Shown: in pieces, positions 7,302 to 16,770 of the stretch | Layout of the letters: each line of letters begins with the position of its first letter | How positions within the stretch are numbered: position 1 is the stretch's first letter | Assembly: GCA_020721005.1 (NCBI GenBank) | Contig: DYNP01000003.1 | Span: forward strand, 62,001 to 126,000 | Length of the DNA: 64,000 bases | Source: Thiomargarita sp. | Lineage (GTDB): Bacteria; Pseudomonadota; Gammaproteobacteria; Beggiatoales; Beggiatoaceae | Direction: 5' to 3' | Notes under the pieces: model-generated | Seen by the model: the letters and a program-made list of their open reading frames with translations, nothing else | What the model was told of the DNA's origin: nothing | The model's database searches: none | Translations under genes and position numbers: made by a program

Positions 7302-8045
7302 ATGGCAACCGCTCGACAAAAGTTTTCTCGTTATTCCAGGCGTTATGTTGTGCCGATTATTCTTGTCATGTTGGTATCTATTCCCACATGGTTTATATCA
7401 ACCTGTATAGATAAATGTTGGGATAATAATACTCTGCCGTTTTGCCTAAAACACTGTCTTCTGGGGGCTGATCTGGAATTTGAAATGCTTTACATTCGTA
7501 TATCTCCATTTGAGCCCAGCCCATCATTACTGAAGAGTGGAGATACTCTTCGCTCCGGAGACTATTATCGATTGACTTGGATTCCTCGTCAAAAGAGTCA
7601 TGTGTATATTTTTCAAGTCACTAACTCCAAAGAGATATATCCTTTATTTCCAATCTCTGATTTTCAAGGTGTTCCATTGGAGCATTCTAACCCTCTTAAA
7701 GCAGGTAAATTTTACGGTACTCCTTCTATGAGTCAATGGTTTGCATTGGATGAGCAATCAGGTAATGAAGCATTTTATTTTCTTGCAACTTTGGATCAAG
7801 ATTCCCAATTGGAACAACACATAAAAGTTCTTCAAACTGCTTTGGAAAAAAACGATCCTGAACAAGTACAAGTTGCCCAAGACAACTTAAGGCAAATTTT
7901 TGAGGCTAAGCAAGAGGTTAGTTTAACAAAACCGCTTGACAAACGGCAGAAAATTCAAGCCAATCGAAAGGATTTTGAGCTTCCCTTGCAGTTATTGTCA
8001 GTGTGTGATGAATGTGTGTACAAACTGAATTTTACCCATCAATAA
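7302..8045 (+). CDS. DUF4384 domain protein, membrane-anchored
   Basis: This 247-residue protein has a basic N-terminus and one hydrophobic segment (about 16-33, VVPIILVMLVSIPTWFIS), so the rest should lie in the periplasm. The core at about 80-165 matches the DUF4384 pattern: SGDTLRSGDYYRLTWIP, then HVYIFQVTNSKEIYPLFP and later an aromatic WFALDE turn. DUF4384 is typically found fused to or beside caspase-like peptidases in bacteria, and its function is not established. Four cysteines lie just after the membrane segment and two near the C-terminus. It is the first gene of a six-gene operon and lies 28 bp before a paralogue. Confidence 0.78.
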   Translation: MATARQKFSRYSRRYVVPIILVMLVSIPTWFISTCIDKCWDNNTLPFCLKHCLLGADLEFEMLYIRISPFEPSPSLLKSGDTLRSGDYYRLTWIPRQKSHVYIFQVTNSKEIYPLFPISDFQGVPLEHSNPLKAGKFYGTPSMSQWFALDEQSGNEAFYFLATLDQDSQLEQHIKVLQTALEKNDPEQVQVAQDNLRQIFEAKQEVSLTKPLDKRQKIQANRKDFELPLQLLSVCDECVYKLNFTHQ

Positions 8046-8073
8046 ATCGTCATATTTTGAGGAGCAATTGGAT

Positions 8074-8724
8074 ATGAAGTACTTAAATCAAGGGCTAATG
8101 CTGTTTTCCATAGTGTTGTTAACATGGATTTCTCCCTATTTGTATGGGACCTCCAAGGGACCAAGTGTGGTGGTTTCAGATGACAAACTCGATTTTGAAT
8201 TTAATCCGATTTATAAGGGAAAGGGGGAAATAGCTTTCTCAAACTTCGATCTCGCTGGAAACACAACCCTCAAATCTGGGGATTCCTATAAAATTGTGTT
8301 TACACCAAAGCAAGATGGTTATGTCTACATTTTTCAGCAAGACAGTTCCGGAAAAATTTACCCACTGTTCCCAATAGAGAAGTTTAAAAAAACTGACCTT
8401 AATCACCCCAAGTCAGTGAAAAAGGGGGTAACTTATTATATCCCAAGTGAGAAGTCTTGGTTTCAACTGGATAAAACAACGGGAACAGAAAGCATTTACT
8501 TCATAACTTCCAAACAACCTGATACGGTTCTTGAGGAACAAGTTAAGACTGCCCTTTCCACTGGTGCAATAATTCCTGAAAAAACTTTGATTGCGGCAAA
8601 AGGACCCTATGAGGTTGTGCCTGATCTAGAGAAGGTAAAGGGGAAAGATTTGATCAAACAGATCTTGCAAGATTGTGAGTCGGAAACTGGTTGTTATCAC
8701 AAATTGATATTTCAGCATAAATAA
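8074..8724 (+). CDS. DUF4384 domain protein, exported paralogue
   Basis: The 216-residue product starts at the ATG behind GAGGAG; a TTG six bases upstream is less likely. It has a hydrophobic N-terminal segment (about 5-23) ending near YGTS, either a signal peptide or an anchor. The DUF4384 core follows: LKSGDSYKIVFTP, then YVYIFQQDSSGKIYPLFP, then WFQLDKTTGTESIYF. It aligns with the preceding protein through the whole core and ends with the same cysteine pair before a lysine or asparagine, LxFxH tail. The two genes therefore arose by duplication. Its likely role is as a partner of the caspase-like proteins, inferred only from context. Confidence 0.75.
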   Translation: MKYLNQGLMLFSIVLLTWISPYLYGTSKGPSVVVSDDKLDFEFNPIYKGKGEIAFSNFDLAGNTTLKSGDSYKIVFTPKQDGYVYIFQQDSSGKIYPLFPIEKFKKTDLNHPKSVKKGVTYYIPSEKSWFQLDKTTGTESIYFITSKQPDTVLEEQVKTALSTGAIIPEKTLIAAKGPYEVVPDLEKVKGKDLIKQILQDCESETGCYHKLIFQHK

Positions 8725-8741
8725 TTTTTTGGGAAAATAGG

Positions 8742-10031
8742 ATGTTGAATAAATACAGTTTTTTCTTGAGCCTGTCACTGTTGTTCCTGGGATGCACTCA
8801 AAATCCAGTAACTCCCACAAACGATGAATCTTCTGATTCATTTCCTCGTGCACCTTTTATTTCAAACACTGCCAATGATTCTCCTACAGCCACCCTTCAT
8901 GCACTTCTTATCTCAGACACTCTGGATAATTCTCCTGAAGAGGATAAAAAAGAACTTGTTCGGAAAGGGTTTGAGCAAGATTTAAAGCAAATGGAGGAAT
9001 TGGTCGATGACATTTCAACACATACTGGTCTCCGCAAAAATCTCGCAATTATCAAGGGCGAAACGTTGAAAAAAGGAAAGGGTCATCAGGCAGTGACACA
9101 GGCAATGGACAGTTGGAACATTCATCCAGAAGACATTGTGATATTTTATTATTCGGGACATGGGGCTCGTCGAGATGACAAGATATCTCCTTGGCCTTTC
9201 TTGTATGTGGAAGGAAATGGGCAACCGAAAGTGCTGGATACTGACTCAGTAATCAATCGTTTGAGTAACCAGTCTCCAAAGTTTTTTGCGGTTATCATAG
9301 ATGCCTGTAATCAAAATGTCCCCGCTTCTAAAACCCCTGATATCAAGGGACCCGGTAATATCATCAATGACAACTATTCACGTTTATTTCTTGAACACCG
9401 AGGCTACTTTATTGCCTCAGCCTCCCAACCTGGAGAATATGCTTTTTCTGCTGGTGAAAATGGGGGCAAATTTACCGGACAGTTTTTAGGCAGTTTACAA
9501 GAGCAATTGCGATCTTCCAATCCTGATTGGACAATTGTAAAAGGTGGTGCAGGAAAAACCATTGTTTTATCCGAAAATGAAGCAGGTCAATCTTCTCAAA
9601 CTCCCTACATAGACTCTGTAATATACACTGGCAAATTGGAGATGGAATTACTGCCCAGTCAACAGTTTAAGGTAGGTGAGAACATGAAAATCAGCATCAA
9701 GAATCAAAGTACAGAAAAGGGCTATTTATTGGTATGGGACCTTGGCAGTCAAAAAAAATTAACTGCCATTTTCCCCAACCAGTATTCCAAATCTGATTTA
9801 TTCTTAGATGGAGGACAAACTGTCACAATTCCTGAAACTGACAGCTACGATTTGCCCATGGACGACTTATTGGGTACAGGATACATCATTGCAATCTGGT
9901 TAAAAAATAAGATAGAATTGAACAGCTCTGCAATTCCAGTCACTACCCTTATGGGTCTACAAAAGTACTTTGATCAACAAGTGGGAGCTGGAAATTGGTC
10001 AATGACAGTCTCAAATTATGAAGTTCACTAG
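8742..10031 (+). CDS. Caspase-like (peptidase C14) protein with C-terminal DUF4384-like domain, putative lipoprotein
   Basis: The N-terminus has a hydrophobic stretch ending LFLGC, an imperfect lipobox at Cys18, followed by a Ser/Thr/Pro-rich linker. A caspase-fold domain spans about 50-290. The catalytic dyad is visible as His140 in IVIFYYSGHGARR and Cys189 in FFAVIIDACN. After it, at about 300-400, comes a DUF4384-like region (FKVGENMKISIKN then YLLVWDLGSQKKLTAIFPN). Bacterial caspase-fold peptidases usually cleave after Lys or Arg. The specificity of this one cannot be read with certainty. It lies 17 bp after the second DUF4384 gene and 24 bp before another caspase gene. Confidence 0.82.
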   Translation: MLNKYSFFLSLSLLFLGCTQNPVTPTNDESSDSFPRAPFISNTANDSPTATLHALLISDTLDNSPEEDKKELVRKGFEQDLKQMEELVDDISTHTGLRKNLAIIKGETLKKGKGHQAVTQAMDSWNIHPEDIVIFYYSGHGARRDDKISPWPFLYVEGNGQPKVLDTDSVINRLSNQSPKFFAVIIDACNQNVPASKTPDIKGPGNIINDNYSRLFLEHRGYFIASASQPGEYAFSAGENGGKFTGQFLGSLQEQLRSSNPDWTIVKGGAGKTIVLSENEAGQSSQTPYIDSVIYTGKLEMELLPSQQFKVGENMKISIKNQSTEKGYLLVWDLGSQKKLTAIFPNQYSKSDLFLDGGQTVTIPETDSYDLPMDDLLGTGYIIAIWLKNKIELNSSAIPVTTLMGLQKYFDQQVGAGNWSMTVSNYEVH

Positions 10032-10055
10032 AAATTCACTAACTGGAGGATCTTT

Positions 10056-11075
10056 ATGAAAAGGCACATCGGTTTTTTATTCTTGATAGGGTTACTGCAA
10101 AGCTGTGTATCCAATTCCTCAATTGATACACCCACTGATTTTTCTTCAGAAATGAAGGGACCTCGTCCTGCTCCTGTTAAGCCTCCCTGTATTTCCCCGC
10201 GTGGGCCAGTTCCAACTTCCCATTGTGAAGATGAAGTGGATTTTCCCAGAGAGAAACAGTTTGCATTGGTGATTGGAATTAACAATTACGAGCAGGGAAG
10301 ATTAACGAATGCAGTTGGAGATGCCCAAAAAGTAGCAGCGTCTTTAAGGGATATTGGAATTGAAGTACAACTGGAAACTGATTTGAAAAAATCTGATTTG
10401 GAAGATGCAATTGCCAACTTTGCTAATAAATTGGCGGGAGCCAATGTGGGAATCATTTATTTTTCTGGACATGGTTCCCAATTTCATGGGGAGGATTATG
10501 TACTGCCCATGAATAACAAAGAGATCATTTCTGATGAAGATTTGGGATGGCGCGCAATCAAGACCCAAGATATTGTTGATAATACCCTATCTAAGGCTTC
10601 AGCTGGGATTTTGATCTTGGATGCTTGTCGTACAAACCCTTACTCCACAACAACCGGTAAAAGCCCTGCTAGAGGATTAAGTCAAACTGCCAAAGGAAGT
10701 AACTCCCTTATCGCATATGCGACCCCCTCTGGCACAGAAATACCAGACAATGGTAAATATTCCAAACACTTGAGTGCAGTGCTCAAGCAAAGAAAAAACC
10801 AACCCATTGAAAAAGTTTTCAAGGAAGTCAGCAGAAGAGTGTCTGAAGAAGGTGCAGAGCGACCTGTTTATACCTCAGGTATCGTCACCGACGTTTGTTT
10901 GGGAGGATGTTTCTCACCTCAATCAGAGCCAGTACTACCTCAACCAGAGCCAGTACTACCTGAACCTGTTCCTCCAATTAGCAAACAATGCCAGGAATTA
11001 CGGAAAGATTGGAATATGGGTTTAATTTCTGACGAAAAATACAAGAGAGAACTTGAAAAACATCATTGTCGTTAA
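10056..11075 (+). CDS. Caspase-like (peptidase C14) lipoprotein
   Basis: The signal sequence has a good lipobox, LLQSC (Cys17), so the protein should be membrane-tethered, and the residue after Cys is not Asp. The caspase p20-like fold runs from about 68 to 290: FALVIGINNY, then the catalytic His139 in IIYFSGHGSQ and Cys191 in GILILDACRTNPY. The DACR motif is typical of bacterial orthocaspases, which prefer basic P1 residues. A repetitive Pro-rich linker (PEPVLPQPEPVLPEP) leads to a short C-terminal helix (DWNMGLISDEKYKREL) that resembles SHOCT-like tails. It differs clearly from the upstream caspase, so the pair may divide labour or process one another. Confidence 0.88.
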   Translation: MKRHIGFLFLIGLLQSCVSNSSIDTPTDFSSEMKGPRPAPVKPPCISPRGPVPTSHCEDEVDFPREKQFALVIGINNYEQGRLTNAVGDAQKVAASLRDIGIEVQLETDLKKSDLEDAIANFANKLAGANVGIIYFSGHGSQFHGEDYVLPMNNKEIISDEDLGWRAIKTQDIVDNTLSKASAGILILDACRTNPYSTTTGKSPARGLSQTAKGSNSLIAYATPSGTEIPDNGKYSKHLSAVLKQRKNQPIEKVFKEVSRRVSEEGAERPVYTSGIVTDVCLGGCFSPQSEPVLPQPEPVLPEPVPPISKQCQELRKDWNMGLISDEKYKRELEKHHCR

Positions 11076-11109
11076 CATGATTCTTCCACACAAATAAGGA
11101 TATTATGCT

Positions 11110-12303
11110 ATGCAGTTAATACGCTTATTGCCTATATTGGGTCTTAGCCTGTTGCTATTGGCTTGCACTACTCAACCAATTGACCCTATAGAATTACCAA
11201 CTCCTCTTGACGTTGCAATCAAAAACATGAGCAACCATTTGTTAAGCAGCGTAATCAAACATCAAGGGACCTCATGGTTTGGGAAACCTTCAATTGTTGC
11301 CGTAAACGACTTTTTATATCAAGACAGCGGAGATATTCCCAAAGAATCCGACCGAATCCAAAACAATGTTTTTAAAATAGGGCAAACAGAACCATTTCAG
11401 AAATTGGTACTTAAAAGATTCGCCGACACCAGTACAGATGAAGCCAGTTATCTCCTGGAAGGATTGATCAGTTTTCAGCCATTGAATCCCAATTCTGCTA
11501 AAAAATATCATTTCCTCAATTCCAAAATAACGGATATCAAAACTGGACAAGAAATTGCTCAATACAGGATGCCCGTGATTGAAGAATTGGATATTTCCTC
11601 AAAATTGCCTAAGGGAGATGGAGGAGTTCCCATTTCAGTCCCCACTACTGATCCCACTGAAAAATCCCCAGTCCCTACTACTGCTTTAGACACCTTAAAA
11701 GCAAAGGAGTTACTGGCTAAAGCGGATGACGCGTATCACAAAATGGACTACCCGGCAGCAAAACACTCATATCAAGAAGCCATTAAATATCCACAACAGG
11801 ATCCTTCTCAAACTGTAAGGGCCTATGGTTACCTCTATAAAACTCTTCTTAAATTGGGAGAAAAAACAGAGGCGGAAACTGCTTTTACCGGAATGGTCAA
11901 AGAAGCAGTGCGCCAAAATAACCTAAGTGTGAGATTTGTATTTGGAATAGACAGTCCCAAGTTCCTTGAGAAGGACACTGGATTGGTCATCAACACTAAG
12001 GAAGAATATGAAATATGGTTACGTCAAATAGGTAATTATTTCAATTCCTCCTCTTCATGCCTACACATTATCGGTCACACCAGCGCAACTGGACCTGAGG
12101 ACTACAATTTGCAACTGTCTAAAAACAGGGCAACAACGGTTCAAACTGAATTGGGCAAGTATTTTTCTGATGTAGGAAGACGTTCCAAAATTTCTGGTAT
12201 GGGATTTAAGGATTGTATTAATTGCCAACCAAAAGATGATGAATCCACCGAAGTTGATCGGCGTGTGGAATTTAAACTCGTTGAATGTTCCGAAATCTCA
12301 TAA
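11110..12303 (+). CDS. OmpA-family lipoprotein with TPR-like middle region
   Basis: The signal peptide ends in lipobox LLLAC (Cys19). Residues about 30-155 look like a lipoprotein domain resembling FlgO/CsgG-like folds (conserved KPSIVAVNDFLYQDSG, TDIKTGQEIAQYR). A Pro/Thr-rich linker follows, then helical pairs at about 195-275 in TPR style (AKADDAYHKMDYPAAKHSYQEAI). Last comes an OmpA-like peptidoglycan-binding domain at about 300-395 (IIGHTSATGPEDYNLQLSKNRA, ending EVDRRVEFKL). It therefore probably ties the outer membrane to the wall and offers a protein-docking surface. It lies between the second caspase and the serpin, 34 bp and 16 bp away, which makes it part of the same unit. Confidence 0.8.
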   Translation: MQLIRLLPILGLSLLLLACTTQPIDPIELPTPLDVAIKNMSNHLLSSVIKHQGTSWFGKPSIVAVNDFLYQDSGDIPKESDRIQNNVFKIGQTEPFQKLVLKRFADTSTDEASYLLEGLISFQPLNPNSAKKYHFLNSKITDIKTGQEIAQYRMPVIEELDISSKLPKGDGGVPISVPTTDPTEKSPVPTTALDTLKAKELLAKADDAYHKMDYPAAKHSYQEAIKYPQQDPSQTVRAYGYLYKTLLKLGEKTEAETAFTGMVKEAVRQNNLSVRFVFGIDSPKFLEKDTGLVINTKEEYEIWLRQIGNYFNSSSSCLHIIGHTSATGPEDYNLQLSKNRATTVQTELGKYFSDVGRRSKISGMGFKDCINCQPKDDESTEVDRRVEFKLVECSEIS

Positions 12304-12319
12304 AAAAGGAAACCAATTT

Positions 12320-13633
12320 ATGATCAAATATTTAGGTGGGTTGTTATTTGCCACTTTGTTACTGACCAGCACCAGCTGCAGTTCCACTGGGACTGTTGAA
12401 AAAACTCAAAAAACCTCGTCTCCACAAGAACTAAGTGCCTCTCCTCCTCAAATGACTTCTGACAAAACAGATATCCCTATTCCTGACGAAAACAAAAATA
12501 TCTCGGGCACGGTCGACAGCTTAAATCAATTTGCCTTAAGTTTGTATTCTCAACTGGGCAATCCTCAAGACAATAGTTTTTTTTCACCCTACAGTATTTT
12601 CAATGCCTTAGTAATAACTTATGCCGGTGCCAAAAATCAGACTGCACAACAAATGCAGCAAGTCTTACATCTTCCCAAAGATGATCAACACCTCCACGCA
12701 ACCTTTTCTCAACTGACCCAACAACTGTCCCAAAACTCTGATCTGAAAATTGCCAACCGCTTATGGATGCAAAAGGGACAGTCTTATTCCCAGGAATTTA
12801 TAGATCTGTTGGGTGAATATTATCAACAAAACAATTTATTGGGAATCAAATCGGTAGACTTTAGCAAAGACCTAGAAGGCATTCGACAACAAATCAATCA
12901 ATGGGTTGCCGACAGCACTGCCCACAAAATTCAGGAACTGTTTGCAGAAAATACATTAACTCAACAAACAAAGTTGGTCTTGGCCAACGCCGTTTACTTC
13001 CACGAGAAATGGGCAGTCCCATTTGATAAAACTCTCACCCAATCAATGCCTTTCACTTTACTGGACAATAAAGAAATTCAAACCGAAATGATGCAACAAA
13101 AAGGTAAATTTCAACACTGGGAAGACTCAGAAGCTCAACTGTTGGAATTGCCTTATAGAAATGGTCAACTGGCCTTGGTAATTATCCTGCCAGAAAAAGG
13201 AAAGGAACGTGATTTCATCAAAAATGAGGGCAAACTGAAATATCACTTGGAAAATTTGAAAAATTTGACCGAGAAAAAACTGACCATTTACCTGCCCAAA
13301 TGGACATTAGAAACTTCCCCTGACTTAAAAACAGCCCTGATTAATTTGGGCATGCAACATGCTTTTGAGCCCGAAAAAGCTGATTTTTCAGGAATTGACC
13401 AGGGACAAAATAAGTTGGTTTTGTCTGACACCATACACAAAACTTTCTTGGAAATCAATGAAGAAGGTACGCAAGCAGCCGCCGCAACGGGTGTTACCCT
13501 GATTCCCAAAGGTCTTATATCACCCCCAGTTGAATTTAAGGCTGACCACCCGTTCATTTTCTTAATCAGAGACAAAACCAGCAATGCCATTCTATTTTTG
13601 GGATGGCTAACTCAACCTCAACCCAAACTATAA
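12320..13633 (+). CDS. Serpin-family protease inhibitor, putative lipoprotein
   Basis: This is a full-length serpin (437 aa from the ATG behind AAAAAGGA; an upstream in-frame ATG overlaps the previous gene). The N-terminal hydrophobic segment ends TSTSC, a weak lipobox, followed by a ~60-residue low-complexity linker. The serpin fold starts near NQFALSLYSQL with FFSPYSIFNALVI, continues with LVLANAVYFHEKW, and ends HPFIFLIRD...ILFLGWL. The reactive-centre hinge NEEGTQAAAATG (P17 Glu381 onward) is of the inhibitory type, with small residues at P12-P9. Counting 17 residues as in antithrombin puts P1 at Lys397 and P1' at Gly. It is the last gene of the caspase operon. Confidence 0.9.
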   Translation: MIKYLGGLLFATLLLTSTSCSSTGTVEKTQKTSSPQELSASPPQMTSDKTDIPIPDENKNISGTVDSLNQFALSLYSQLGNPQDNSFFSPYSIFNALVITYAGAKNQTAQQMQQVLHLPKDDQHLHATFSQLTQQLSQNSDLKIANRLWMQKGQSYSQEFIDLLGEYYQQNNLLGIKSVDFSKDLEGIRQQINQWVADSTAHKIQELFAENTLTQQTKLVLANAVYFHEKWAVPFDKTLTQSMPFTLLDNKEIQTEMMQQKGKFQHWEDSEAQLLELPYRNGQLALVIILPEKGKERDFIKNEGKLKYHLENLKNLTEKKLTIYLPKWTLETSPDLKTALINLGMQHAFEPEKADFSGIDQGQNKLVLSDTIHKTFLEINEEGTQAAAATGVTLIPKGLISPPVEFKADHPFIFLIRDKTSNAILFLGWLTQPQPKL

Positions 13634-13692
13634 TTTTATTGGCAAACTCTTGCCACACAACCCAACTTCCCTCCATTTCAATCATAATCCAT

Positions 13693-13721
13693 GAGAAGGA
13701 ACATTTATCTCGTTCCTTCTC
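13693..13721 (+). terminator. Hairpin downstream of the serpin operon
   Basis: A perfect 10-bp stem (GAGAAGGAAC and its complement) with a 9-nt loop lies 60 bp after the serpin stop. The T tract is poor (AAATTT follows), so efficiency is uncertain. It lies between the convergent serpin and sugar-transferase genes and could serve either. Confidence 0.5.
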
Positions 13722-13798
13722 AAATTTCCCATAATAATCTCAAATCTCCCATAAAGACAACTGCTGATCTTTAACAATCAGAAGAATGCAGTGCTTTA

Positions 13799-14431
13799 TT
13801 ACAAATACTTCGACCCTTTCACCGGCAGCGATGACCTAAAAAACACGCGTTTAAGCGTTCTTAAAATCAATACAATATCCAACCACAACGACTGCTCACT
13901 TACATATTGCTGATGATAAGCCAATTTGATTGGCAAAATTTTCTCAATATAATCTATCTCAGGCTGTTGGGACTGAGCAAGCAATTCACTTTCCTGACTA
14001 AATTCTATAGACGCATAATCAGTCATTCCCACTGGCACTGATAACACATAATCTTTAATCTTATCAGGATATAATGCCACATATTCTGGCACTTCTGGAC
14101 GCGGTCCCACCAAACTCATTTCCCCCCTCAACACATTGATCAACTGGGGTAACTCATCCAACTTATATTTGCGCAAAAAATGTCCACAACGGGTAATACG
14201 ATGATCTTCGCCAATCGTCAACTTTAACCCACATTTACCTTGAGACATGGTACGAAACTTAATGATTTTAAAAGCTTTTCCGTGTTGACCAATCCGAGTT
14301 TGTAAAAAAAACACCGGTCCACGACTGTCAACCTTCACCCACAAAGCAATGACCAACAATAGGGGGCTCAACACAATTAACCCGGGAATCACACAACTCA
14401 TATCAAATAATCGTTTTTTGCTCATAATCAT
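13799..14431 (-). CDS. Bacterial sugar transferase (phosphoglycosyl transferase, WcaJ/PglC type)
   Basis: The enzyme moves a sugar-1-phosphate from a UDP-sugar to undecaprenyl phosphate, the first membrane step in making exopolysaccharide or glycan chains. The 210-residue length matches the catalytic core alone. It starts MSKKRLFDM, then a re-entrant hydrophobic helix (about 10-32) typical of the monotopic enzymes. The family blocks follow: FLQTRIGQHGKAFKIIKFRTM, LRKYKLDELPQLINVLRGEMSLVGPRPE and the late W.D..L.L.T. The expected catalytic Asp-Glu of this class is in KYKLDELPQL. No other polysaccharide gene adjoins it. The WecG/TagA-like transferase at 60.7 kb is the only other envelope-sugar gene in the window. 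Confidence 0.9.
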   Translation of the reverse strand: MIMSKKRLFDMSCVIPGLIVLSPLLLVIALWVKVDSRGPVFFLQTRIGQHGKAFKIIKFRTMSQGKCGLKLTIGEDHRITRCGHFLRKYKLDELPQLINVLRGEMSLVGPRPEVPEYVALYPDKIKDYVLSVPVGMTDYASIEFSQESELLAQSQQPEIDYIEKILPIKLAYHQQYVSEQSLWLDIVLILRTLKRVFFRSSLPVKGSKYL

Positions 14432-14672
14432 ATACTTAGTTTAATAAACTGATAACCCTGCACAACTGCCAAAAACCTCCATAAACCAAAGACCTTTTGC
14501 GATTTGATTCCCATTTAAATTCAAAAAATTTTTCAACCGCTTTTCCTCAATTCTCCAACCGATTTTCTTCGCTCACAGCGGGATTGTATTTCCTTAAATA
14601 GAATGCTATACTCATGACAAACCGGTGCATTTACCTATTCTCTTGATAAAAAAACCATTTAGGAAAACTGTT

Positions 14673-16109
14673 GTGACTCCAAATTCTACCCCTTCTCAGC
14701 GACATTTAGAATATCGAACTGCTTCAGCCACCCGTGATGCTCTGTTATTTCTGCGCAATGTGCCCCAAGTTGCCTTGGGAGACCGAGTTTCCATTCGAGA
14801 CCATGCCGGTCGCGAACGCAATGGCCAAGTCATTCAAACCAGCAAAGAAGTGGTATTGATACAAGTCTTTGAAGGCACTCAAGATTTAGACCTAGAAAAC
14901 ACCTGGGTTCGATTCTTAGAAACCCCTTTTGAACTCTCACTCTCTCCAGATTTACTTGGACGTATTTTCAATGGAATTGCTCAACCGCGAGATGGTCGTC
15001 CTCCTTTAATCTCCAGTCTCAAGCGCAATGTCAATGGCACCTCGGTCAATCCAGCTGCCCGCGCCTATCCTCGGGAATTCATTCAAACTGGTATTTCGGC
15101 TATTGATGGTCTCAACTCCTTGGTACGTGGACAAAAATTACCCATCTTTTCCGGATCGGGACTGCCACACAATCGACTGGCAGCACAAATCGTGCGCCAA
15201 GCCAAACTGATTGGCAAATCTTCTCAATTCGCCATCGTATTTGCAGCCATGGGAGTTTCTTATTCCGATGCCAGATTCTTTCAAGAAGACTTTGAAGCCA
15301 GCGGCGTGTTAACCAACGTAGTCATGTTCATCAACCAAGCCGACGATCCTCCCATGGAAAGATTAATTTTGCCCCGCACCGCCTTGACTGCGGCAGAATA
15401 TTTGGCGTTCGATCTGGATCGACATGTGTTGGTCGTTATCACCGACATGACCCACTACGCAGAAGCCTTACGAGAAGTTGCCACTGCTAAGGGCGATGTT
15501 CCCGCTCGCAAAGGTTATCCAGGCTATCTCTATTCAGATTTGGCAGAAATTTATGAACGGGCAGGGCGCATTCGCAATCGTCAAGGTTCGATCACCATGA
15601 TCCCAGTGGTCAGCATGCCCAGCGATGACATCACACATCCCATTCCCGATCTGACTGGATACATCACCGAAGGGCAAATTGTGCTCAGTCGAGAATTACA
15701 TAATCAAGGTATTTATCCTCCCATTCATGTTCCCCCTTCTTTATCTCGACTGATGAAGGATGGGATTGGCAAGGAGCATACTCGAGAGGATCATGGACGT
15801 GTGGCAAACCAAATTTATGCCGCTTATACCCGTGCCTTAGAAGCGCGCAATTTGGCTTCCATCATTGGGGCTGAGGAACTTTCAGAATTGGATCAACGCT
15901 ATTTAAAATTTGCAGAAGCCTTTGAAAAGCGTTTCATTGGGCAGGGGGAACAAACCGATCGAACTTTGTTGGAGACTTTAGAATTGTCTTGGGAATTACT
16001 GGCATTGTTGCCCAAATCCAGTTTAACTCGGGTAACTGAAATGGATATTGACAAGTATTACCCTCAACCTTCAGAAACTTATTCTGAAACAGACTCTTTG
16101 GTCAGTTAA
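14673..16109 (+). CDS. ntpB: V-type ATP synthase/ATPase subunit B
   Basis: This is the non-catalytic nucleotide-binding subunit of the V1/A1 head. It has 478 residues from the GTG that follows AGGA at good spacing; another GTG 48 bases upstream would add 16 residues that do not fit the family. The family start EYRT..A appears at once. The body carries LGRIFNGIAQPRDGRP, FIQTGISAIDGLNSLVRGQKLPIFSGSGLPHN (in place of a Walker A), VVITDMTHYAEALREV and SMPSDDITHPIPDLTGYITEGQI. It is followed by subunit D. The catalytic A subunit and the membrane subunits are not in the flanking DNA, which is unusual. Confidence 0.93.
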   Translation: MTPNSTPSQRHLEYRTASATRDALLFLRNVPQVALGDRVSIRDHAGRERNGQVIQTSKEVVLIQVFEGTQDLDLENTWVRFLETPFELSLSPDLLGRIFNGIAQPRDGRPPLISSLKRNVNGTSVNPAARAYPREFIQTGISAIDGLNSLVRGQKLPIFSGSGLPHNRLAAQIVRQAKLIGKSSQFAIVFAAMGVSYSDARFFQEDFEASGVLTNVVMFINQADDPPMERLILPRTALTAAEYLAFDLDRHVLVVITDMTHYAEALREVATAKGDVPARKGYPGYLYSDLAEIYERAGRIRNRQGSITMIPVVSMPSDDITHPIPDLTGYITEGQIVLSRELHNQGIYPPIHVPPSLSRLMKDGIGKEHTREDHGRVANQIYAAYTRALEARNLASIIGAEELSELDQRYLKFAEAFEKRFIGQGEQTDRTLLETLELSWELLALLPKSSLTRVTEMDIDKYYPQPSETYSETDSLVS

Positions 16110-16143
16110 AAATCAGTCTCTTTATCGATATGGGAATTTCAAC

Positions 16144-16770
16144 ATGGCTCAAACTCGTCTAAAAGTTCCACCCACCAAAAGCACCTTACTGATTCTGAAA
16201 CGAAAATTGGCCTTTTTGGAGCAAGGCCATGGGCTTCTTGAAAGAAAAAAAGAACTGTTGACTCGTCTGGTGTATGAACGATTGAAGCAATATCGTCAAC
16301 TGCGAGAACAATTGCATGAACATTTTAAACAAGCCTATCATTGGTTGAGTTTAACGCAAATGCGCATGTCTGACCAGTCCTTGCAACAGACCGCTTTGGG
16401 TTTGTCTAAACCATTCGATATCAACGTGTTGCCTAGAAGCAGCTTGGGAATTCATTATCCAGCGGTCAATATAAATCCCTTGCCCTTACAACCCATAGGA
16501 TTGATGGGCACGGACAGTAGTTTCGATGAAACCCGGCATCATCTTATCAATTTGGTCCATTTATTGGCTCAACTTGGGGAAGTGGAGACCGCATTGTGGC
16601 GACTGTTGGAGGAGCAGCGCAAAACTCAAAAACGAGTCAATGCTCTCAAGTATAACATCATTCCCAGTTATTCAGCCACCATTCATTTTATCAAATCCAC
16701 TTTAGAGGAAGATGAACGCAATACCTTGTTTCAAATCAAGATTCTCAAACAACGTTCCGAGGTTCAATAG
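16144..16770 (+). CDS. ntpD: V-type ATP synthase/ATPase subunit D
   Basis: Subunit D is the central rotor stalk, a long antiparallel coiled coil that turns inside the A3B3 head. From the ATG at MAQTRLKVPPTKSTLL the protein has 208 residues, the usual size. Both ends are strongly helical: the N-terminal KRKLAFLEQGHGLLERKKELL, and the C-terminal EEQRKTQKRVNALKYNIIP...TIHFIKSTLEEDERNT, where the family signature (RRVNALE..IIP) is recognisable. It lies 34 bp after subunit B in the same orientation, so the two are co-transcribed. A palindromic terminator follows. Confidence 0.92.
   Translation: MAQTRLKVPPTKSTLLILKRKLAFLEQGHGLLERKKELLTRLVYERLKQYRQLREQLHEHFKQAYHWLSLTQMRMSDQSLQQTALGLSKPFDINVLPRSSLGIHYPAVNINPLPLQPIGLMGTDSSFDETRHHLINLVHLLAQLGEVETALWRLLEEQRKTQKRVNALKYNIIPSYSATIHFIKSTLEEDERNTLFQIKILKQRSEVQ

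Follow-up and report, generated by a model that had tools for sequence, protein, structure and literature searches.

A 64,000-nucleotide stretch of a Thiomargarita sp. genome, positions 62001–126000 of contig C96 and hereafter called the window, carries an operon in which two DUF4384 proteins (genes A and B), two caspase-fold proteins of the peptidase C14 family (C and D), a lipoprotein with an OmpA domain (E) and a serpin (F) are encoded side by side. The serpin and caspase genes of this cluster are very probably coupled in function. The best explanation of the operon, which in our judgement is an even bet, is an outer-membrane-anchored, paracaspase-like module encoded together with its own suicide inhibitor. 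This explanation builds on the gene set, the catalytic dyads, the predicted fold, the hinge and P1 residue of the serpin, a two-Cys tail found beside relatives of gene E, and the recurrence of the cluster in other genomes. The features of the operon are as follows (positions are those of the window):

7302–8045, plus strand: gene A, DUF4384 protein of 247 amino acids with a hydrophobic N-terminal segment (PF14326, 6.5e-07)
8068–8724, plus strand: gene B, DUF4384 protein of 218 amino acids with a TTG start and a signal-like N-terminus (PF14326, 3.8e-16)
8742–10031, plus strand: gene C, caspase-fold (C14) protein with a C-terminal DUF4384 domain, 429 amino acids, lipobox-like FLGC (Pfam)
9159–9161, plus strand: dyad His of gene C (His140), found in every one of 12 aligned rows
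9306–9308, plus strand: dyad Cys of gene C (Cys189); this Cys and Asp187, two positions ahead of it, are found in every one of the 12 rows
10056–11075, plus strand: gene D, paracaspase-like C14 protein of 339 amino acids with a lipobox-like LQSC and a C-terminal two-Cys tail (Peptidase_C14, 1e-28)
10470–10472, plus strand: catalytic His139 of gene D (alignment)
10626–10628, plus strand: dyad Cys of gene D (Cys191), found in all of 14 aligned rows, two of which are parts of one gene
10989–11069, plus strand: predicted helical hairpin at the C-terminus of gene D (the two-Cys tail, Cys312 to Cys338)
11110–12303, plus strand: gene E, lipoprotein with an N-terminal alpha/beta domain, TPR-like helices and a domain of the OmpA peptidoglycan-binding type (Pfam OmpA, model)
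12320–13633, plus strand: gene F, predicted exported serpin of 437 amino acids (Serpin, 2e-107)
13460–13513, plus strand: reactive-centre loop of the serpin, from the hinge EEGTQAAAAT to the P1 Lys (codon 13508–13510) and P1' Gly

According to the list of open reading frames (ORFs), the six genes all lie on the plus strand and span 7302–13633, with gaps from A to F of 22, 17, 24, 34 and 16 bp, given a serpin start at ATG 12320. This start was re-assigned: it lies 16 bp past gene E and directly follows a good ribosome-binding site, AAAAAAGGAA; a longer serpin ORF from 12236 would overlap gene E. The Pfam matches over curated cut-offs are DUF4384 for A and for B, Peptidase_C14 plus DUF4384 for C, Peptidase_C14 for D, OmpA for E and Serpin for F; the TPR match of gene E is weak and falls under its cut-off. 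ORFs and Pfam thus bear out the gene set that the initial annotation had described, on one strand with gaps of 16–34 bp. Its further claim that each product carries an export signal, a membrane anchor or a lipobox is apparently right, as far as a lipobox pattern and N-termini judged by eye can tell: lipobox-like motifs accepted by the pattern are found in genes C, D and E, and the N-terminus of serpin F is signal-like, its STSC not being accepted as a lipobox. All six products are apparently exported. The whole genome (4.05 Mb) contains 2 serpin, 11 C14 and 5 DUF4384 matches, some of the C14 matches being parts of one frame; since one of the two serpin, two of the 11 C14 and three of the five DUF4384 matches sit in the 6.3-kb operon, their clustering exceeds chance.

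The dyads His140/Cys189 and His139/Cys191, predicted to be intact, were confirmed in alignments, and both C and D carry the His/Cys dyad of peptidase C14 (clan CD). The best solved relative of gene D by sequence is MALT1 (3.5e-07), and a Foldseek search with its predicted model likewise matches MALT1 (E 7.2e-16); within the caspase part of this model, most 10-residue blocks have a predicted local distance difference test score (pLDDT) of 81–98, with one stretch at 69. No immunoglobulin (Ig) family was detected in gene D by Pfam at E ≤ 1, and because this domain, which belongs to paracaspases of the MALT1 type, was not found, gene D is called paracaspase-like and not a paracaspase. It also shows a weak CHAT overlap (0.0026), below the curated cut-off. 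The caspase fold of gene C is assigned solely by Pfam; a weak similarity to metacaspase-9 (E 0.037) was seen as well. MALT1 is an Arg-specific enzyme. In gene D, Asp189, located two residues before Cys191 and kept in 14 of 14 aligned rows, and Asp89, which aligns with an Asp of MALT1, would be the S1 acids; the equivalent MALT1 residues we take to be the S1 acids for a basic P1. The Asp-x-Cys signature of both C and D suits Arg/Lys substrates, and this is the specificity predicted for them.

Serpin F is a full-length domain, matching positions 2–370 of the 370-position PF00079 profile. Inhibitory serpins share the hinge consensus E-E-G-T-x-A-A-A-A-T, with its small residues, and the hinge of serpin F agrees with it. 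When the hinge Gly is counted as P15, P1 is Lys, and this Lys, taken together with Asp-x-Cys in the neighbouring proteases, fits an Arg/Lys-specific caspase–serpin pair like AtSerpin1 and metacaspase 9 in vitro. The second serpin of the same genome (G000:C79:353531-354607; L002, L076) is divergent, forms a long branch and has P1 Met; no C14 gene was found near it in the fetched flanks.

Gene E was aligned with 37 relatives of 25–32% identity. Its model (pLDDT 84.7) combines an alpha/beta domain and TPR-like helices with an OmpA domain that resembles Pal (VIA Z 14.0, 106 residues, root-mean-square deviation 2.2). A known fold was sought for the N-terminal domain and no clear solved match emerged, HpaA chains matching at low coverage; the rows of a second structural aligner cover chiefly the TPR and OmpA parts. 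The tail of gene D follows the pattern C..LL.Q.S.G..PLT..Q......C, in which the two Cys and a Gly are invariant in 20 of 20 aligned rows. Besides the window, it was seen at loci L070 and L184–L221. Many gene E relatives are directly preceded by a gene whose product ends in this tail, and these products are diverse, including DnaJ-domain, Ser/Thr kinase, TPR and C14 proteins. Across the Thiotrichaceae there are 45 tails in 26 of 42 genomes. The idea that the tail marks gene E neighbours exclusively is close to true among the fetched loci and was rejected genome-wide, where only 25 of the 45 have a gene E relative at most 1.5 kb downstream. The tail may dock its protein onto gene E, and tail and lipoprotein may possibly be the two halves of a modular docking device in the cell envelope.

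Recurrence of the cluster was followed first of all within the Thiotrichaceae, one family of Gammaproteobacteria whose 42 genomes make up the whole content of the order in the search set. Serpin matches occur in 26 of these genomes, C14 in 40 and DUF4384 in 34. With flanks of up to about 9 kb fetched for 34 serpin loci, C14 was found in five, and in four of them, from three genera and including the window, it lies within 2.5 kb of the serpin; the close loci outside the window are G014:C201, G014:C23 and G019:C48 (906 bp), and the fifth, G019:C62, has its C14 gene at 4.7 kb. A uniform-placement model based on C14 density, which ignores kinship and clustering, predicts 0.59 loci within 2.5 kb (Poisson p 0.003); for a distance of 5 kb, it predicts 1.19 (p 0.007). 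Serpin-bearing genomes are also richer in C14, with a median of 12.5 vs 4.0 (26 vs 16 genomes, one-sided Mann-Whitney p 0.002) and, among genomes at least 90% complete, of 13 vs 4 (19 vs 13 genomes, p 0.0003), kinship being ignored in both comparisons.

The Thiotrichaceae clusters outside the window belong to genera g8 and g13. In G014:C201, all genes are on one strand in the order C14 with the tail, gene E relative, OmpA, C14+DUF4384, serpin, small lipoprotein, C14+MORN, serpin, small lipoprotein, and the first serpin overlaps the preceding gene by 4 bp. G014:C23 has three C14 genes followed by a serpin after 22 bp, and the order in G019:C48 is similar, with three C14 genes and then the serpin. 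In each of the latter two loci, one caspase (L074:1783-3540, minus strand; L072:5937-7847, plus strand) has a long C-terminal extension that resembles an outer-membrane barrel and ends in an aromatic residue, with a Pfam OMP_b-brl match (0.052) in one only. Small look-alike lipoproteins are encoded just downstream of serpins in G014 and G011 (L070:11707-12177, L073:1672-2115), and no credible Pfam family was found for these two. The contig G011:C77 breaks off within the gene E relative that immediately precedes its serpin.

Beyond this family, three further sets of serpin loci were considered. The broad set comprises the best 80 serpin loci among the matches listed in named genomes, 76 of them non-Thiotrichaceae, and C14 was found in one of the 76, namely L130 (G407), from a metagenome-assembled genome (MAG) labelled Desulfomonile tiedjei. 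The gene order there is C14+DUF4384, DUF4384, OmpA, C14+DUF4384, TPR-OmpA, serpin. An extracytoplasmic function (ECF) sigma factor and a possible anti-sigma factor (weak zf-HC2) are encoded upstream (L130:1472-3122), so stress control of this cluster is possible. A C14 match occurs anywhere in the genome in 17 of the 49 genomes behind the broad loci. The second set holds 40 loci, 33 from Desulfobacterota, where 37 of 395 genomes have a serpin, and seven gammaproteobacterial; across the whole class Gammaproteobacteria, a serpin match is present in 11 of 369 genomes, two of these being Thiotrichaceae. One of the 40 loci, L235 of G556, has a C14 cluster: C14+DUF4384, TPR-CHAT, DUF4384, DUF4384+C14, serpin (28 bp), OmpA, TPR-CHAT, TPR-OmpA, where the C14 part of the first gene was recognised by a Thiotrichaceae-built profile and the motif. 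The TPR-CHAT proteins (L235:954-4673 and 12228-15572) flank the serpin and C14 genes. Finally, in cyanobacteria, where 116 of 386 genomes have a serpin family match and 70 exceed the curated cut-off, no C14 gene was found beside the serpins in any of 60 fetched loci, the regions having been picked mostly by rank.

In total, the analysis covered 214 serpin loci, with some present twice. Loci were counted with all ORFs of at least 80 amino acids, greedy ORF picking having given no serpin at L232, L234 and L252. Both flanks are 2.5 kb or longer in 22 of the 34 Thiotrichaceae loci, 50 of the 76 broad ones, 19 of the 33 from Desulfobacterota, 4 of the 7 gammaproteobacterial and 51 of the 60 cyanobacterial ones. 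Genomes G429, G431 and G444 are common to the broad and Desulfobacterota sets, and G407 and G424 were counted via the broad loci L130 and L124; G660 and G536, with fragmentary serpin matches, and G117 and G376, two of the nine non-Thiotrichaceae Gammaproteobacteria genomes with serpins, lie outside the sample. Since the C14 profile was built from Thiotrichaceae sequences, very divergent caspases may be missed. A motif search for GHG...DxC found no cyanobacterial caspase, and its two matches elsewhere (L108, L236) were not supported by the C14 profile. GHG and Asp-x-Cys are retained in the caspases of the serpin clusters.

Conserved adjacency of a co-encoded protease and inhibitor candidate is therefore seen in G014, G019, G407 and G556. 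The initial annotation had named an adjacency confined to this one genome as grounds for refuting its idea; with clusters in genera g8 and g13 as well as two genomes of Desulfobacterota, this refutation does not hold, and an isolated coincidence was rejected because the cluster recurs. The opposite extreme, C14 adjacency as a general habit of bacterial serpins, was rejected, since in the fetched DNA C14 lies at none of the 60 cyanobacterial loci and at one of the 76 non-Thiotrichaceae loci of the broad set.

In a tree of 144 serpins, built by a quick method, the five Thiotrichaceae operon serpins group together (SH-like approximate likelihood-ratio test, SH-aLRT, 88), their neighbours being serpins of G011, G021, G031 and a Thiomargarita MAG (84). 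Another 20 Thiotrichaceae serpins, with no C14 in the fetched DNA, form a separate group (96). The two Desulfobacterota operon serpins are placed elsewhere and also apart from each other. The operon label requires three changes on this tree, at least two of them forced by well-supported branches, and none of 500 shuffles gave a number as low. Because the Desulfobacterota operon serpins sit apart, the caspase–serpin linkage arose at least two times, or serpins were swapped beside protease genes. The MAG containing L130 may be mis-binned, which would leave the separate tree place of its serpin unchanged.

The P1 residue was compared across the same sets. Lys or Arg is found at P1 in 23 of 31 Thiotrichaceae serpins with a readable hinge, and within P2–P1' in 29 of them. 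Elsewhere, P1 is K/R in 17 of 76 serpins of the broad set, in 6 of 34 of the Desulfobacterota/gammaproteobacterial set and in 4 of 61 cyanobacterial ones. The difference between Thiotrichaceae (23/31) and the broad plus Desulfobacterota/gammaproteobacterial serpins (23/110) is marked (Fisher 8e-08); nine serpin ORFs without a recognised hinge, several of them fragments, were dropped before counting, and the broad P1 set omits the four Thiotrichaceae loci L107, L128, L136 and L150. The serpin of G005, a genome with one C14 match, has P1 Ile. Serpin pieces spread over several frames (G037:C183:7327-8314, G027:C103:7746-8784) are apparently decaying copies.

The operon can be pictured as encoding clan CD proteases that form a module anchored in the outer membrane, along with an irreversible brake on them. 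In this proposal, C and D would be lipidated caspase-fold endopeptidases that face the periplasm and cut behind Arg/Lys. Gene E, which its OmpA domain would tie to peptidoglycan, would hold caspase D by the two-Cys C-terminal tail of the latter, and the DUF4384 proteins would be partners or sensors of the same complex. Serpin F, present in the same compartment, would offer its P1 Lys as bait, and a caspase firing outside its trigger would cut the loop and become trapped as a covalent acyl-serpin complex. The localisation, specificity, tail–E binding, inhibition, trigger and substrates of this module are what we infer from the genes. That the serpin directly inhibits its co-encoded caspases has, judging from the sequences, about the same chance of being true as of being false. 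It is a tentative generalisation, with a chance somewhat below even, that bacteria have built at least two times a periplasmic caspase–serpin circuit combining outer-membrane-anchored paracaspase-like proteases, Cys-hairpin docking on an OmpA/TPR lipoprotein that is itself bound to peptidoglycan, and a co-encoded suicide serpin.

Several points weigh against direct inhibition of the neighbouring caspases. Serpins chiefly inhibit serine proteases. In the fetched DNA, 30 of 34 Thiotrichaceae serpin loci have no C14 gene within 2.5 kb (12 of the 34 have less than 2.5 kb on one side), and C14 genes far outnumber serpins in most genomes of the family, so that most of them have no adjacent serpin. 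Strict P1 K/R occurs in two of the five Thiotrichaceae operon serpins, the other three having K/R at P2; all five have K/R somewhere in P2–P1'. Two of the dropped Thiotrichaceae serpins, L056 and L080, look non-basic and would bring the family count to 23/33. Stand-alone serpins of the family also have P1 Arg, which means that a basic P1 is not tied to operons, and a P1 code exclusive to operon serpins was thus ruled out. The Desulfobacterota operon serpins have P1 Ala (L130/G407, counted on sequence) and Met (L235/G556) next to partners with Asp-x-Cys, so P1 does not match the partner S1 in every case. Bait and enzyme fit in Thiotrichaceae, because a basic P1 is combined with GHG/Asp-x-Cys caspases and gene D is nearest to MALT1; in Desulfobacterota, at the standard register, the two do not fit. 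Of the envelope protease–inhibitor system suggested in the initial annotation, the gene set, the apparent shared compartment and the functional coupling stand, and the Desulfobacterota P1 mismatch speaks against a universal match of inhibitor and target; for a role in programmed death or interbacterial defence, there is no evidence either way.

Some of these points would be explained if the serpin were a shield of the envelope complex that traps trypsin-like serine proteases, whether they come from grazers, from neighbours or from the periplasm of the cell itself. Its co-expression with the caspases would then follow from all of them acting at the outer membrane under the same stress. P1 Arg/Lys suits trypsin-like enzymes too, the many stand-alone Thiotrichaceae serpins with P1 Arg agree with such a role, as does the lack of a basic P1 in the Desulfobacterota operons, and plasmin inhibition has been reported for the bacterial serpin miropin (PMC8233489). 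A shield leaves unexplained, however, why C14, DUF4384 and OmpA recur beside serpins that are distant in the tree and why serpin-bearing genomes have higher C14 counts; we regard it as rather unlikely, if the most serious of the alternatives. It is improbable that the serpin is instead directed at another clan CD protease, such as a CHAT protein, or at a caspase paralogue from another part of the genome, in which case P1 would be adapted to that target and co-location would mark the system. G556, with TPR-CHAT proteins on both sides of a P1 Met serpin, and the further C14 genes of the window genome point in this direction, but the window operon has no CHAT match above the curated cut-off, and the P1 Lys of its serpin fits the neighbours C and D. 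As for an island of exported proteins brought together by coincidence, without a functional link, the small size of the effect (4/34 loci; p 0.003 under the simple uniform-placement model) leaves some room for it, yet the tight gaps, the single strand, the several C14 copies per cluster, the return of the cluster, accessory families included, in a second phylum and the absence from all 60 cyanobacterial loci make it very improbable.

A promoter/terminator scan was uninformative, with 19 promoter-like and 8 terminator-like sites vs 17.0 and 6.0 in shuffles. Rfam at gathering thresholds detected one tRNA and the signal recognition particle (SRP) RNA in the window, both beyond the operon. The genes that follow it at 14625–16770 resemble V-type ATP synthase subunits B and D, as judged by eye. 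Screened for anti-phage defence with PADLOC, the six operon genes gave caspase model matches (1.5e-12, 3.6e-06) and ZorB matches to OmpA parts; no other PADLOC model matched any of the six at E ≤ 0.01.

MALT1 and the bacterial orthocaspases are among the closest known counterparts. Gene D is nearest to MALT1 in sequence and predicted fold and retains the His/Cys dyad and the S1 Asp positions; it differs in having no Ig domain by Pfam, a lipobox-like signal, the two-Cys tail and a serpin encoded nearby. Staphopain and staphostatin are a secreted cysteine protease and the dedicated inhibitor co-encoded with it, staphostatins being small cytoplasmic proteins and not serpins. Unlike that pair, the operon described here would combine a clan CD protease with an exported serpin as the proposed inhibitor. 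A serpin-versus-caspase arrangement is also found in poxviruses. To our knowledge, the circuit proposed here would provide the first prokaryotic caspase relatives with a serpin as their natural inhibitor.

In plants, AtSerpin1 has been reported to inhibit metacaspase 9 (AtMC9) in vitro, and the LR serpins have Leu-Arg-small at P2–P1' (PMC3534287). The likeness to our operon lies in the pairing of a basic-P1 serpin with a caspase relative; the difference is that the major in vivo target of AtSerpin1 is described as the papain-like protease RD21 (PMC3534287), while here exported proteins of one bacterial operon are concerned and inhibition is proposed. Orthocaspases are reported to cleave after positively charged residues, and DUF4384 has been noted at the C-terminus of QC-type pseudo-orthocaspases (PMC6426788). 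Flood et al. (2016) counted 59 PF00656 metacaspase genes in a Thiomargarita genome, from the same family as the window, and described the roles of bacterial metacaspases as poorly understood; the main text of that paper (PMC4853749) does not mention the word "serpin", and neither does that of PMC2853523. Beggiatoa is named among free-living prokaryotes with chordate-like serpins in a paper on serpin phylogeny whose main text does not contain the word "operon" (PMC8233489). No description of a caspase–serpin operon pairing was found in open-licence full texts, subscription papers and preprints being outside the scope of the search.

Prokaryotes, and giant sulfur bacteria most of all, encode many caspase relatives, whose regulators and roles are largely unknown. 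If the proposal is true, an adjacent natural inhibitor would give a handle on when these proteases fire, and the serpin–caspase arrangement of plants (with metacaspases) and poxviruses would extend to the bacterial envelope. Environmental bacterial serpins, whose targets are mostly unknown, would likewise gain a testable target. That other genera, and a second phylum as well, share the caspase–serpin pairing hints that bacteria, too, may control their caspase relatives by means of serpins.

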